The position numbers and the translations under genes were made by a program. A stretch of DNA of 64,000 nucleotides from Hyphobacterium indicum (GTDB lineage: Bacteria > Pseudomonadota > Alphaproteobacteria > Caulobacterales > Maricaulaceae), in assembly GCF_003129605.1 (NCBI RefSeq), contig NZ_QBDX01000001.1, forward strand, positions 806,001 to 870,000, read 5' to 3'. The notes beneath the pieces were generated by a model. That model saw nothing but the letters and a program-made list of their open reading frames with translations. It searched no databases and had not been told where the DNA came from. How positions within the stretch are numbered: position 1 is the stretch's first letter; each line of letters opens with the position of its first letter. Shown here piece after piece: positions 6,518 through 10,532 of the stretch.

Positions 6518-6961
6518 ATGGCGAAGACAAAAGACGCCTCGGTCTCTGAAATCGAACTTCCGGCCGGTTATGTGCCGTCCCCCAAAGAACCCTTCATGAA
6601 TGAGCGTCAGGTCGAGTATTTCCGGCGCAAGCTGAATGCGTGGAAGGACGAGATCATCCGCGAGAGCAAGACCACGCTGGAAGCGCTGCAGGAAGATATC
6701 GGCGCCATGCCGGATATTGCCGACCGCGCCTCGACCGAAACCGACCGCTCTCTGGAACTGCGCGCCCGCGACCGCCAGCGCAAGCTGATCGCCAAGATCG
6801 ACTCGGCCCTGCGCCGCATCGAGGACGGCACGTATGGCTATTGCGAGGAAACCGGCGAGCCCATCAGCCTGAAACGCCTCGACGCCCGCCCCGTCGCCAC
6901 CCTGTCGCTCGAAGCCCAGGAACGCCATGAGCGCTCCGAGCGCGTGCATCGCGACGATTAA
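6518..6961 (+). CDS. dksA: DksA-family RNA polymerase-binding regulator
   Basis: A 147-residue protein. The coiled-coil tip motif DxxDxA is present (D66-IA-D69-R-A71), as is the helix 'SLELRARDRQRKLIAKID', both needed to reach the polymerase secondary channel with ppGpp. Of the four zinc-finger cysteines of E. coli DksA only Cys109 remains; the others are Thr112, Ser130 and Ala133, so a normal zinc finger is unlikely. I chose the ATG at 6518 over a GTG nine bases earlier. Its stop lies 3 nt from the end of the convergent cassette gene. Confidence 0.9.
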   Translation: MAKTKDASVSEIELPAGYVPSPKEPFMNERQVEYFRRKLNAWKDEIIRESKTTLEALQEDIGAMPDIADRASTETDRSLELRARDRQRKLIAKIDSALRRIEDGTYGYCEETGEPISLKRLDARPVATLSLEAQERHERSERVHRDD

Positions 6962-6964
6962 GAT

Positions 6965-7753
6965 TCACGACAAGAACAAGTCCGATTGGTTGTCCTCATC
7001 GATCCTGATCATCCCAACAAGCAACCATTGCGACTTCCGACGAGAGTGTGTGCTGAAGGCCAGCGCCATGCCTCGACGCATGTAATCGTTCTCGTATGTC
7101 TCCTTTAGCGAAACAATCCCTGCCTTGTCGCCGAGGTTTTTGCTTCTGCGGTAAAAAGCAGTTGTGGTCTCCCAATCATCGCAGGTGTGATTGTGAACTC
7201 TGCCATCCTGGTCCGCCCATTTGACGTGGAACGAGAATGGGCAGGGCTTCATCGGATCGACAGGCTTATCGAACATCGTGTATTGCCGAGCATACTCCGC
7301 GTGTTTTCGTGTCTCATCGGCCACCATTGCGTCGGATTTTCTTTTGGCCGTGAAATCTAAATTTCGGGGGCGCACTAACGCCAACGACTCGCCGCGATCA
7401 GCAGCCTCTACGAGCGACGCACGGATGAGTGGATTTATGAAGGCCGGTCGTTGCGATATCGTCAGTGCTTTTGAGACAGATAGCGTGTCAGCATCTACTC
7501 GTTGGCTTTCCCAACGGTCGTCTGTTTTGGGGCTGGTATACTCGTATTCAATCCAGTCCCATCGTTTGAACTGGGAGCCGCGCTCGAGAATTCTAAACGG
7601 AACAGGATAAAGGCGTCGCCACCTTCCATCACGGCCTAACCCTGCGCAACAGACAGTTTCAAAATAATCGCTGGATCTATGCGGCAGTGCTTTGACGACT
7701 ATGAAGCACTCGTCTTTTTGCGTGGAAAGTCGGCTCAATTTCGCGAACCCCAA
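6965..7753 (-). CDS. Partner protein of the DUF488 cassette, function unknown
   Basis: A protein of up to 262 residues that overlaps the upstream DUF488 gene by about 77 nt. The TTG at 7753 is uncertain and translation may begin a little downstream. Recognisable blocks are 'CCAGLGRDGRWRRLYPVPFR', 'WDWIEYEY', 'SLALVRPRNL', 'HTCDDWETTTAFYRR' and 'HSRRKSQWLLVGMIRID'. I remember similar proteins beside DUF488 genes, but none with a proven role. Conserved Cys, His and aromatic clusters suggest a compact nucleic-acid or metal-binding domain; this is inference. GC content is visibly lower than in dksA and fliX, which points to horizontal acquisition. Confidence 0.7.
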   Translation of the reverse strand: MGFAKLSRLSTQKDECFIVVKALPHRSSDYFETVCCAGLGRDGRWRRLYPVPFRILERGSQFKRWDWIEYEYTSPKTDDRWESQRVDADTLSVSKALTISQRPAFINPLIRASLVEAADRGESLALVRPRNLDFTAKRKSDAMVADETRKHAEYARQYTMFDKPVDPMKPCPFSFHVKWADQDGRVHNHTCDDWETTTAFYRRSKNLGDKAGIVSLKETYENDYMRRGMALAFSTHSRRKSQWLLVGMIRIDEDNQSDLFLS

Positions 7754-8177
7754 GATGTTGAGGTTTCAAGCCTATACGACCCGCCACTATATCCGCAACT
7801 ATAGAGCGATGGCATGTGCTGGGATCACGTTCATAGCAGAGTAGGCAAGCGTGTTGTTTCTCCACGATTAATTCAATTTCATCGAGAGCTTCTTGGGCGG
7901 CCATTGATGCAACCGCTTCATCGTAGATTTTGCGAAACTTCTTCCATTCGCCAGCCCTTGCTGCTTCGCGACCAGCTTTCGGATCACCGAGTTCGCGAAG
8001 GTGAAGGTAATCAATGCCAACAGCCTTGAGAGCATCTGACAAAGCAGTCTTGGAGAACCCCTTTCGCCGCGATTGCGCGCGATCGCGAACATCGACCAGA
8101 ATTTCAACGCCTGCCGTTTGCAACGTTCCGATAAAGTGGCTGAGTTGCGCGGACTCGTATCCAATAGTTGAAAGCAT
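7677..8177 (-). CDS. DUF488 family protein
   Basis: A 166-residue protein starting at the ATG at 8175-8177. DUF488 features are the N-terminal 'MLSTIGYESAQLSHFIGTLQ', 'VDVRDRAQSRRKGFSK', and the Cys/His-rich 'ACLLCYERDPSTCHRSIVAD'. Family members are small, often plasmid- or island-borne, and mostly uncharacterised. It is the first gene of a two-gene minus-strand cassette; its 3' end overlaps the partner, which implies coupled expression. Low GC relative to neighbours suggests transfer. Confidence 0.85.
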   Translation of the reverse strand: MLSTIGYESAQLSHFIGTLQTAGVEILVDVRDRAQSRRKGFSKTALSDALKAVGIDYLHLRELGDPKAGREAARAGEWKKFRKIYDEAVASMAAQEALDEIELIVEKQHACLLCYERDPSTCHRSIVADIVAGRIGLKPQHLGVREIEPTFHAKRRVLHSRQSTAA

Positions 8178-8373
8178 GATGATCTCCCTACCGCCAAAAT
8201 TGAGTGTGTCGGTTAAAGAATCAACAAGCGAACGCAATCCTGAACCACCTCACAACCCGATGACCCGCTTCCTGCGCCCGCGAAAGCGGGTGTCGCGAGG
8301 ACAGGCAAGCCGGAGGGTGACGGAGTTGGAGAGGGGGAGAGTGTGGTTCGAGGCTTTGCTGCGGGACGTCCAA

Positions 8374-8490
8374 CCCCTCACCCTGGCTGCTCGCCGCAGC
8401 GCGGCTTCGCACCCTTTCCCTCTCCCCTTTGAAAGGGGAGAGGGTAGAGGAAGGCGGCCACGCGAGTGGGCGGCTTTCGAGGGTGAGGGG
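8374..8490. repeat. 117-bp palindromic element, copy 1
   Basis: Bounded by cccctcaccct (8374-8384) and its reverse complement agggtgagggg (8480-8490). A perfect 11-bp central hairpin is formed by ctctccccttt (8420-8430) and aaaggggagag (8432-8442). Copy 2 differs at 4 of 117 positions. Confidence 0.85.
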
Positions 8491-8655
8491 TTGGTTTCCC
8501 CTTCCGCAAGCGGGGAGGGGAAATAGCGCCCTGTTTTTCACCCATACAAACGCGTCATCACCCGGTTTATCCGGGTGATCTCCATGACATCGGGATCACC
8601 CGGACCCGCGCGTGGCGCGGCCGTGTGATGACGGGTTGGGGGTGCAAACTGACTT

Positions 8656-8772
8656 CCCCTCACCCTGGCTGCTCGCCGCTGCGCGACTTCGCACCCTTTC
8701 CCTCTCCCCTTTCAAAGGGGAGAGGGTAGAGGAAGGCGGCCACGCGAGTGGACGGCTTTCGAGGGTGAGGGG
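8656..8772. repeat. 117-bp palindromic element, copy 2
   Basis: Same length and boundaries as copy 1, 282 bp downstream in direct orientation. All four differences lie outside the outer arms; one is in the single-base loop of the central hairpin. Confidence 0.85.
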
Positions 8773-8812
8773 TTGGTTTCCTCCTCCTGTTTACGGGGGG
8801 CAGCAAAACACG

Positions 8813-8925
8813 TCACCCCACCCTGACGGCTGCGCCGTCTTCCCTCCCCATCAAGGGGAGGGGAAAAGACGCCGGCGCTGAAAACTTTCCCCTCCCCCGC
8901 CGTGGGGAGGGGTAGGGGTGGGGGG
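8813..8925 (+). repeat. G-quadruplex-prone palindromic repeat, unit 2
   Basis: It begins with a 'caccccaccctgacgg' block, then the ccctcccc-atcaa-ggggaggg hairpin, then the cccctcccc/ggggagggg hairpin. The G-quadruplex pattern lies at 8904-8925. Confidence 0.8.
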
Positions 8926-8948
8926 CTGGTGTCGCGTCCGCCATCTTC

Positions 8949-9107
8949 ACCCCACCCGGTCCTGCGGACCACCCTCCCCATCAAGGGGAGGGGAAGAACG
9001 CCATCGGTTCAAACATTCCGTCTGACCATCAAGGGGAGGGGAAAAGAGCACCGAACGCTGCCAATACTTTCCCCTCCCCCGCCGTGGGGAGGGGTAGGGG
9101 TGGGGGG
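8949..9107 (+). repeat. G-quadruplex-prone palindromic repeat, unit 3
   Basis: Same architecture as unit 2, with an extra catcaaggggagggg arm at about 9027-9041. The G-quadruplex pattern at 9086-9107 ends 28 nt before the first DUF559 start codon, so the repeat forms that gene's leader. Confidence 0.8.
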
Positions 9108-9135
9108 TAATTGCAACCCGTGATAAGCTGGACCC

Positions 9136-9498
9136 ATGCCCAGCCGTGCCCAATCGCTGCGCAATAGCATGACCGATCACGAACGGCTGGTCTGGTATGT
9201 GCTGCGCGGCTGGCGCGAACAGGGCTTTCATTTCCGGCGGCAAGCCCCGATTGGCGGCTTCATTGTCGATTTCGTCTGTCACAAATACCGTCTGGTGATC
9301 GAGATTGACGGCAGCCAGCACGGCTTTGAAGACAACTCGAAACGAGATGCCGCCCGCGATGCCTGGCTCCGCAGCGAAGGCTATGAGGTCCTGAGGGTCT
9401 GGAATGTCGATGTCCGGGAGAATCTGGATGGCGTGATGGACGGCATATATGCGGCGGTTTGTGAGCTCCGCAGGCGTCAGGAACAGGATGATTCGTAG
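9136..9498 (+). CDS. DUF559 (Vsr-like) endonuclease-fold protein, copy A
   Basis: A 120-residue single-domain protein of the DUF559 group, related to very-short-patch-repair nucleases and the PD-(D/E)XK fold. Visible core: Asp45 in 'GGFIVDFVCHKYRLVIEIDG' and Glu56-Ile-Asp58 in the same segment, then 'GSQH' and the C-terminal 'LRSEGYEVLRVWNVDV'. It probably cuts or nicks DNA, but no substrate can be named. It is 96% identical to copy B (5 residue changes) and is bracketed on both sides by G-rich palindromes, which supply its leader. No canonical promoter is seen. Such genes are common in alphaproteobacterial repeat-rich regions. Confidence 0.85.
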   Translation: MPSRAQSLRNSMTDHERLVWYVLRGWREQGFHFRRQAPIGGFIVDFVCHKYRLVIEIDGSQHGFEDNSKRDAARDAWLRSEGYEVLRVWNVDVRENLDGVMDGIYAAVCELRRRQEQDDS

Positions 9499-9505
9499 TC
9501 TGATC

Positions 9506-9620
9506 ACCCCACCCCGCCGGTCCTGACGGACCTGCGACCCTCCCCATCAAGGGGAAAAGAGCACCGAACGCTGCCAACACTTTCCCCTCCCCCGCCGTGG
9601 GGAGGGGTAGGGGTGGGGGG
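9506..9620 (+). repeat. G-quadruplex-prone palindromic repeat, unit 4
   Basis: Starts 8 nt after the stop of DUF559 copy A. The first hairpin is shortened (ccctccccatcaagggg followed by aaaag). The G-quadruplex pattern is at 9599-9620. Confidence 0.8.
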
Positions 9621-9642
9621 CTGGTGTCGCGTCCGCCATCTT

Positions 9643-9752
9643 CACCCCACCCGGTCCTGCGGACCACCCTCCCCATCAAGGGGAGGGGAAAGAGAACCAA
9701 CGCTGCCAACACTTTCCCCTCCCCCGCCGTGGGGAGGGGTAGGGGTGGGGGG
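9643..9752 (+). repeat. G-quadruplex-prone palindromic repeat, unit 5
   Basis: Forms the leader of DUF559 copy B. The bases from 9621 to about 9690 match those at 8926 to 8995, showing that the upstream flank was duplicated too. The G-quadruplex pattern is at 9731-9752. Confidence 0.8.
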
Positions 9753-9780
9753 TAATTGCAACCCGTGATAAGGTTGAACC

Positions 9781-10143
9781 ATGTCCAGCCGTGCCCAATC
9801 GCTGCGAAACCGCATGACCGATCACGAACGGCTGGTCTGGTATGTGCTGCGCGGCTGGCGCGAACAGGGCTTTCATTTCCGGCGGCAATCACCGATCGGC
9901 GGCTTCATTGTCGATTTTGTCTGCCACAAATACCGTCTGGTGATCGAGATTGACGGCAGCCAGCACGGCTTTGAAGACAACTCGAAACGGGATGCCGCCC
10001 GCGATGCCTGGCTCCGCAGCGAAGGCTATGAGGTCCTGAGGGTCTGGAATGTCGATGTCCGGGAGAATCTGGATGGTGTGATGGACGGCATCTATGCGGC
10101 GGTTTGCGAGCTTCGACGCAGGCAGGAATATGATGGTTCCTAG
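9781..10143 (+). CDS. DUF559 (Vsr-like) endonuclease-fold protein, copy B
   Basis: A 120-residue tandem paralogue of copy A. Replacements are Pro2Ser, Ser11Arg, Ala37Ser, Gln117Tyr and Asp119Gly, none in the putative active-site segment (Asp45, Glu56, Asp58). Fourteen further codons differ silently, so most change since the duplication has kept the protein sequence. The leader is the same G-rich palindrome plus 'taattgcaacccgtgataag'. It ends 7 nt before repeat unit 6. As with copy A, the nuclease activity is inferred from the family. Confidence 0.85.
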   Translation: MSSRAQSLRNRMTDHERLVWYVLRGWREQGFHFRRQSPIGGFIVDFVCHKYRLVIEIDGSQHGFEDNSKRDAARDAWLRSEGYEVLRVWNVDVRENLDGVMDGIYAAVCELRRRQEYDGS

Positions 10144-10149
10144 TCTGAT

Positions 10150-10265
10150 CACCCCACCCCGCCGGTCCTGACGGACCTGCGACCCTCCCCATCAAGGGGA
10201 AAAGAGCACCGAACGCTGCCAATACTTTCCCCTCCCCCACCGTGGGGAGGGGTAGGGGTGGGGGG
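10150..10265 (+). repeat. G-quadruplex-prone palindromic repeat, unit 6
   Basis: Follows DUF559 copy B and matches unit 4 at 645-bp offset, with caccgt instead of cgccgt in the hairpin loop. The G-quadruplex pattern is at 10244-10265. It is followed by taatt as in the DUF559 leaders, but no third gene follows. Confidence 0.8.
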
Positions 10266-10293
10266 TAATTACCGGCATGGCATTTGCCATCAT

Positions 10294-10457
10294 CACCCCA
10301 CCCTGACGACTGCGCCGTCTTCCCTCCCCATCGAGGGGAGGGGAAACGGGCCTCTGGTTCAAACCCTCGTTCAAGCCATCAAGTGAAGGGGAAAAGAGCA
10401 CCCAACGCTGCCAACACTTTCCCCTCCCCCGCCGTGGGGAGGGGTAGGGGTGGGGGG
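10294..10457 (+). repeat. G-quadruplex-prone palindromic repeat, unit 7
   Basis: Last unit of the array, with a decayed middle arm (catcaagtgaagggg). The G-quadruplex pattern is at 10436-10457. Confidence 0.8.
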
Positions 10458-10532
10458 AGAAAAAGGGCATCTGTCACATCCAGATCCCGGATCGCGCGCT
10501 ATCGCGCTTGTCCGGGATGCCTGCTCCGCAGG

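Follow-up and report, generated by a model that had tools for sequence, protein, structure and literature searches.

Inverted triplex-motif repeats flank genes for DUF559 nuclease-like proteins in Hyphobacterium indicum and across the Pseudomonadota

Palindromic repeats and DUF559 proteins

Several families of short bacterial repeats resemble those described here. The BoxC/PIT/TM motifs share with them a pyrimidine/purine hairpin accompanied by a mirror-image purine third strand (class II), an intergenic location and a frequent arrangement as inverted pairs; in the type described below, both the stems and the second loop depart from the E. coli consensus (PMC4666352). The E. coli K-12 catalogue holds 23 copies of the triplex motif, triplex formation has been demonstrated in vitro for the E. 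coli motif only, the motifs are associated with instability, and PIT elements are reported to be without promoter and terminator activity (PMC4666352). Holder et al. (2015) looked for mobility genes beside the motifs and found none, nor was there any consistent function among the flanking genes (PMC4666352).

A second group comprises the REP and REPIN elements, whose short multi-copy palindromes form inverted dimers and are associated with a repeat-flanked nuclease gene (RAYT, or TnpA-REP) and with gene-less derivatives. All of this has a counterpart at the present locus, except that the nuclease gene here encodes a PD-(D/E)XK-type DUF559 protein and not an HUH/Y1 enzyme. The Alphaproteobacteria also contain palindromic repeats for which no transposase is known (PMC3733652). 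Among these, the CGTC REPs are likewise arranged as inverted dimers and lack a RAYT, but they belong to another sequence class, and in the order studied here CGTC-like repeats flank some GIY-YIG genes and not DUF559 genes. Finally, MITEs are short, have terminal inverted repeats and share their ends with a gene-bearing element; they differ from the present repeats in that no target duplication is seen here and that DUF559 is not a known transposase.

The DUF559, YcjD and VsrA proteins (PF04480, COG2852) constitute a single family within the Vsr-like PD-(D/E)XK superfamily (PMC1189080, PMC12907096). No link between DUF559, COG2852 or ycjD and these repeats was found in the literature searched, a body that leaves out most subscription journals. 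The components are all known, and the link between them is new to the searched literature.

The repeat unit and the DUF559 cassettes of Hyphobacterium indicum

The locus lies in a stretch of 64,000 nucleotides of the H. indicum genome, referred to here as the window. Seven copies of a repeat core, GGGGAGGGGTAGGGGTGGGG, are present in the window, all of them on the forward strand, one at 2807 and six from 8904 to 10455, in agreement with a first-pass annotation that had listed seven units of like orientation at 2.7-2.8 kb (one) and 8.8-10.5 kb (six). The purine arm GGGGAGGGG is matched 22 times in the window against an expectation of 0.84, and its perfect partner CCCCTCCCC accompanies six of the seven cores; the perfect hairpin that had been ascribed to every unit therefore fails in the copy at 2790-2826, where CCCCTCCCA takes the place of CCCCTCCCC.

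Solitary copies elsewhere in the genome establish where a unit starts, at TTTCCCCTCCCC, and where it ends, at GGGGAGGGGAA(A) about 110 bp further on. The annotation had instead taken the G-runs as the end of the unit, and because the scattered solitary copies define both ends, its units prove to be out of phase with the true dimer. The unit is an inverted dimer, TTTCCCCTCCCC...GGGGAGGGGAAA, of 103-121 bp in most intact copies. Its left part reads TTT(T)CCCCTCCCC-loop-GGGGAGGGG-TA-GGGGTGGGGG; after a linker of about 16-34 nt, its right part consists of (G)ATCACCCCACCC, a variable hairpin and CCCTCCCCATCAAGGGGAGGGGAA(A), such that the G-rich tails of the two halves face inward, toward each other. 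The 5' foot of the units in this genome is TTT and not the GTAG or CGTC of the RAYT type; a GTAG is present within GGGGTAGGGG as the 3' foot, and is absent from the other repeat types read. A search of Rfam gave no match. The ends are MITE-like insofar as gene-less units have the termini TTTCCCCTCCCC and GGGGAGGGGAA and the DUF559 cassettes have the same halves; among dispersed units with both ends, no common flanking target-site duplication was seen by eye.

Two DUF559 genes occupy the position of the dimer linker, each forming a cassette of half-unit, gene and inverted half-unit (9068-9558 and 9713-10203). In cassette 1, the left half-unit (9068-9107, forward strand) is made up of a TTT-CCCCTCCCC hairpin, TA and the third strand GGGGTGGGG, with its tail toward the gene; the gene (9136-9498, forward) encodes a PF04480 protein of 120 aa in which D45, E56, D58 and H62 are present, and the right inverted half-unit (9502-9558, reverse strand) comprises GATCACCCCACCC, a variable hairpin and CCCTCCCCATCAAGGGGAAAA. 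Cassette 2 repeats this arrangement, with a left half-unit at 9713-9752 (forward), a gene at 9781-10143 (forward) and a right inverted half-unit at 10147-10203 (reverse). The window sequence thus confirms that both nuclease genes lie between units and have a unit as leader. The two genes are 645 bp apart and their proteins 96% identical, and the cassettes represent a tandem duplication; since part of the array arose in this manner, the six units cannot be counted as six independent insertions.

Complete gene-less dimers are found before (8886-8995), between (9581-9691) and after (10226-10346) the two cassettes. The last of these has a long cruciform-like predicted fold (z = -4.6), and relatives of it that are 93-94% identical are located in the same genome at C1:558325, C4:462584 and C1:800471. 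Partial copies include a solitary right half-unit (8813-8867, reverse), a remnant of a right half-unit (9026-9045) and a left half-unit without its right half (10418-10457, forward), and at 2.8 kb a gene-less dimer with an imperfect left hairpin (2790-2904) lies beside a solitary right half-unit (2712-2769, reverse). CGTC-type repeats (CGTCATCCCGG.../...CCGGGATGACGG) are also present in the window near the triplex-motif repeats, at 2390-2502 and 10470-10530. A window-like arrangement, with two tandem DUF559 genes and a triplex-motif pair between them, was noted in another genome (locus L082 of G064).

Both window ORFs match the PF04480 profile (E = 2.5e-35 and 2.4e-35; 121 bits against a curated cut-off of 20.6), which upholds their earlier identification as DUF559 genes. 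Nine residues, E16, Q36, F46, E56, D58, G59, H62, R74 and R87, are invariant in 98 of 98 DUF559 sequences and D45 is kept in 97; E56, D58, H62 and D45 are the putative catalytic residues, and their near-universal retention argues for a working enzyme. The relative detected by sequence in the PDB is 3HRL, an endonuclease-like protein (E = 1.7e-19). An AlphaFold2 model based on three input sequences had a pLDDT of 64, and no conclusion was drawn from it.

Genome-wide (2.79 Mb in 4 contigs), the core has 20 exact copies, of which 18 run forward and 2 in reverse relative to the contig coordinates. About 13 of them are dispersed and have no DUF559 gene in the vicinity, and no core outside the window cluster has one within 1.5 kb. 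A second cluster, of four units and likewise without DUF559, was seen at C1:594957-596429 (L066). A third DUF559 gene, 46.7% identical and located elsewhere in the genome, has repeats of another type on its flanks, and this second type is also represented in the window by two copies that are 95% identical (8374-8505 and 8656-8787; CCCTCTCCCC/GGGGAGAGGG hairpins with GGGTGAGGGG tails). An exact 20-mer from the window repeat was recovered from only 7 of 150 genomes of the order; the window sequence is thus lineage-specific, and the general form of the repeat was sought by structure.

A mirror third strand as the conserved feature

Across repeat types, the purine tract beside the hairpin mirrors the purine arm of the stem (T being allowed for A). 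Such a mirror third strand accompanies 206 of the 221 hairpins that flank DUF559 genes, compared with 15.9 when tails are shuffled, and in 169 of 197 cases no other stem type matches the tail as well as its own. The stem and third strand are GGGGAGGGG-TA-GGGGTGGGG in the window and, elsewhere, GGGAGAAGG/GGATGAGGG or GAGAGAGGG/GGGTGAGAG. At the level of sequence, this covariation of duplex and third strand is what characterises the intrastrand triplex motif of class II known from BoxC/PIT/TM. The units had previously been viewed as G-quadruplex-forming palindromes, and the strand seen in the window may possibly adopt such a structure. However, several repeat types do not contain four long G-runs, and four runs of at least 3 are not found in all types (the CTTCTCC type, for example, has GGGAGAAGG...GGATGAGGG); the quadruplex is not a common property of the repeats and was rejected as their conserved feature in favour of the nearly universal mirror third strand.

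Association of DUF559 genes with the repeats

The architecture of the element is real, and the co-localisation of DUF559 genes with hairpin repeats is phylum-wide. The test set consisted of 12-kb regions, one per genome, that surround a DUF559 gene in 60 genomes of the order; 20 ParE regions and 20 GIY-YIG regions served as controls. Pyrimidine/purine (Y/R) hairpins were defined by an arm of at least 7 and a loop of 3-8. A Y/R hairpin was located within about 300 bp of the DUF559 gene in 55 of the 60 loci, and on both sides in 40, as against 0/20 ParE and 0/20 GIY-YIG loci; the nuclease-repeat association, first proposed for the window, thus extends far beyond it. Hairpin density was 3.1/kb near DUF559 and 0.08/kb more than 1 kb away, a 38-fold difference. 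With genes called in the same regions by a crude longest-ORF rule, 85 of 103 intergenic gaps beside DUF559 contained a hairpin versus 26 of 469 other gaps (p = 3e-59). A motif-free test, in which one flank was compared with the reverse complement of the other, gave inverted-flank similarity above the 99th percentile of the background at 45/60 DUF559 loci and 0/20 ParE loci.

Where the hairpins could be oriented, their tails were directed at the gene in 56 of 65 upstream and 46 of 61 downstream cases; at a minority of loci they are directed away from it on at least one side, as in Deinococcus. Hairpins are present as well in the best-scoring 27 loci from the rest of the Pseudomonadota, which include other families, orders and classes, and inverted hairpin pairs lie on both sides of the gene in four DUF559 loci on Deinococcus plasmids. 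At two Deinococcus loci (L292 and L288) the inverted repeats run 10-15 bp past the triplex motif with locus-specific arms (such as ATTCGCTTTG...), as if each insertion had made its own inverted flank.

The type of stem follows the DUF559 phylogeny. On a tree of 98 domains, which is based on short sequences and has many weak forks, stem type changes 9 times, compared with a mean of 23.5 and a minimum of 17 in 300 shufflings within host family. Such a pattern fits enzyme and repeat being inherited together as a unit, although it is not by itself proof of recognition; physical linkage alone could be the source of the correlation. Nor are the repeats equally common in genomes that lack the enzyme, and the check on which the first-pass annotation had made its view depend comes out in its favour: the median number of copies of one common repeat form is 5 in genomes with DUF559 and 0 in those without (p = 3e-6, kinship ignored), and at least 10 copies are found in 38 of 112 genomes with DUF559 versus 2 of 38 without it (kinship again ignored). 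Some DUF559-less genomes are nevertheless repeat-rich (19 copies in G108, 15 in G062). Among the genomes of the order, a single form reaches up to 123 copies per genome. Hairpins remote from the gene matched the type of the local DUF559 gene in 18 of 64 cases, versus 24.6 by chance, in a sample with mostly one DUF559 gene per genome, which makes this a weak test.

Occupied and unoccupied sites

Unoccupied sites, for which a search had been recommended, exist both at gor and at the window locus. At gor in one family, the genome G117 has the arrangement hairpin-DUF559-hairpin, and in G053 (92% identity of Gor) 15 bp take its place; a lone motif is found there in G147, a relic palindrome in G057, and three further genomes are occupied, the cassette being common to four genomes of two genera. 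The comparison gives the ends of the element at base level, with gain and loss indistinguishable, and the short allele of G053 may reflect loss rather than a site that was never occupied. At the window locus, G153, from the same genus as H. indicum, matches it at about 95% identity on either flank and has no DUF559 gene there, its cassette (80% nt identity) being at another place, while in G150 only about 95 bp separate the dksA-like gene from flgH. This interval, from the dksA-like gene to flgH (window 6960-10530), is a variable site at which four other congeners have 1.4-3.9 kb of other content; an ORF at 6965-8237 (262 aa), beside a DUF488 gene, is apparently accessory cargo of the same site.

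In E. coli the DUF559 gene is ycjD, between sapF and fabI. A 1.4-kb query over the sapF/ycjD/fabI junction was covered to at least 80% in 3,333 of 5,426 genomes, and in a K-12-type strain the ycjD-fabI interval contains a motif that is letter-for-letter the published K-12 motif 9 (1,351,239-1,351,204).

Proposed spread of the elements

On balance, the window locus probably consists of two tandem small elements, in each of which inverted triplex-motif repeats surround a gene for a PD-(D/E)XK, Vsr-like nuclease, and which are spread by DUF559, together with gene-less dimers built from the same repeats. Recognition, cleavage and mobilisation are what we infer for the enzyme. The motif would fold once it becomes single-stranded, for instance on the lagging strand; DUF559 would recognise its cognate motif, extruded or single-stranded, as a hairpin with a third purine strand, and would nick or cut at the folded motif; and repair or recombination using another copy would then place the element, or a gene-less dimer, in a new intergenic site. 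The data suggest that DUF559 supplies what these common repeats have long lacked, a partner to spread or process them. Several observations weigh against this: the cores dispersed without a DUF559 gene in the vicinity, the repeat-rich genomes that lack the enzyme, remote hairpins that match the local type no better than chance, the want of a visible target-site duplication, and the loci whose tails are directed away from the gene. The likeness to REP elements and their RAYTs that had been pointed out earlier holds for the anatomy of the locus and may extend to its working, but two defining features, the HUH domain and the GTAG/CGTC foot, fail, and the RAYT itself is missing: Y1_Tnp/RAYT (PF01797) is absent from the H. 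indicum genome and from 120 of 150 genomes of the order, and for this reason RAYT is unlikely to be the mover and was rejected as such.

Positions at which some genomes have a cassette and others an unoccupied allele, as at gor, are also to be expected if DUF559 were a selfish homing-type passenger that cuts repeat-lacking or divergent alleles and is copied in via the flanking repeats, the gene-less repeats not being spread by it. This would agree with the Vsr-related fold (the YcjD profile detects Vsr; PMC1189080), with the finding of either ycjD or eef as alternatives at the same E. coli position, and with cassettes inside operons, such as pntAA-DUF559-pntAB in the pnt operon of Sphingomonas and paaD-DUF559-paaZ. 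It is nonetheless an unlikely account, as the rise in repeat numbers with DUF559 presence is left unexplained by it and so, unless by linkage, is the tracking of the enzyme tree by repeat type.

Somewhat more doubtful still is the notion that DUF559 is a Vsr-like repair or structure-resolving nuclease that has triplex motifs among its targets and limits replication stalling, with its gene kept close to them through autoregulation or chance. Caulobacter VsrA, a DUF559 protein, has indeed been connected with DNA damage, and a role in mismatch repair has been put forward for it (PMC12907096); the instability associated with triplex motifs points in the same direction. A host gene of this kind would, however, be expected to have stable positions, whereas DUF559 genes number 0 to 11 per genome in the order and occupy variable sites with inverted-repeat flanks; moreover, the motif proposed for VsrA, YGCCGGCR (PMC12907096), is unrelated to the repeats.

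The two remaining explanations are disfavoured by the controls. That the hairpins are regulators of DUF559, acting as a leader attenuator or a terminator, and look like repeats only because G/C-rich hairpins are common, would account for their occurrence in leaders and just past stop codons, but is most improbable given that they are multi-copy and dispersed, with as many as the 123 copies of one form noted above; a terminator-only reading was rejected in view of the mirror third strand, which RNA hairpins do not need, and of the reported inactivity of PIT elements as terminators (PMC4666352). There is equally little to recommend the view that DUF559 genes and repeats gather in the same permissive intergenic sites with no functional link, for although the window locus is variable and has other cargo, hairpins are found in few other gaps of the same regions (26/469) and at none of the 40 ParE and GIY-YIG loci, and they adjoin the DUF559 gene at either end, forming inverted pairs.

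A possible wider family of nuclease-associated repeats

It is nearly as likely as not that the BoxC/PIT/TM superfamily, which is very widespread in bacteria, has its cognate triplex-recognising nuclease in DUF559/YcjD and makes up with it a RAYT-independent class of REP-type mobile elements ranging from Deinococcus to E. coli; a parallel GIY-YIG class may exist. The strength of the association names a candidate enzyme for the repeats and points to a likely substrate for DUF559, whose function has been unknown. The question can be tested in E. coli K-12, where ycjD adjoins a catalogued motif.

A second nuclease-repeat pairing, of GIY-YIG genes with other palindromes, is possible. Palindromes of another class (CGTCATTCC.../GCTTCGACAAGCTCAG...) lie beside the small GIY-YIG nuclease genes in part of the regions (L155, L158, L160, L161, L163, L164, L166 and L169), an excess of similarity between the two flanks is seen in inverted orientation in 6/20 regions and in direct orientation in 6/20, and the motif CGTCATYCY has a density of 1.36/kb near GIY-YIG genes versus 0.11/kb far from them.
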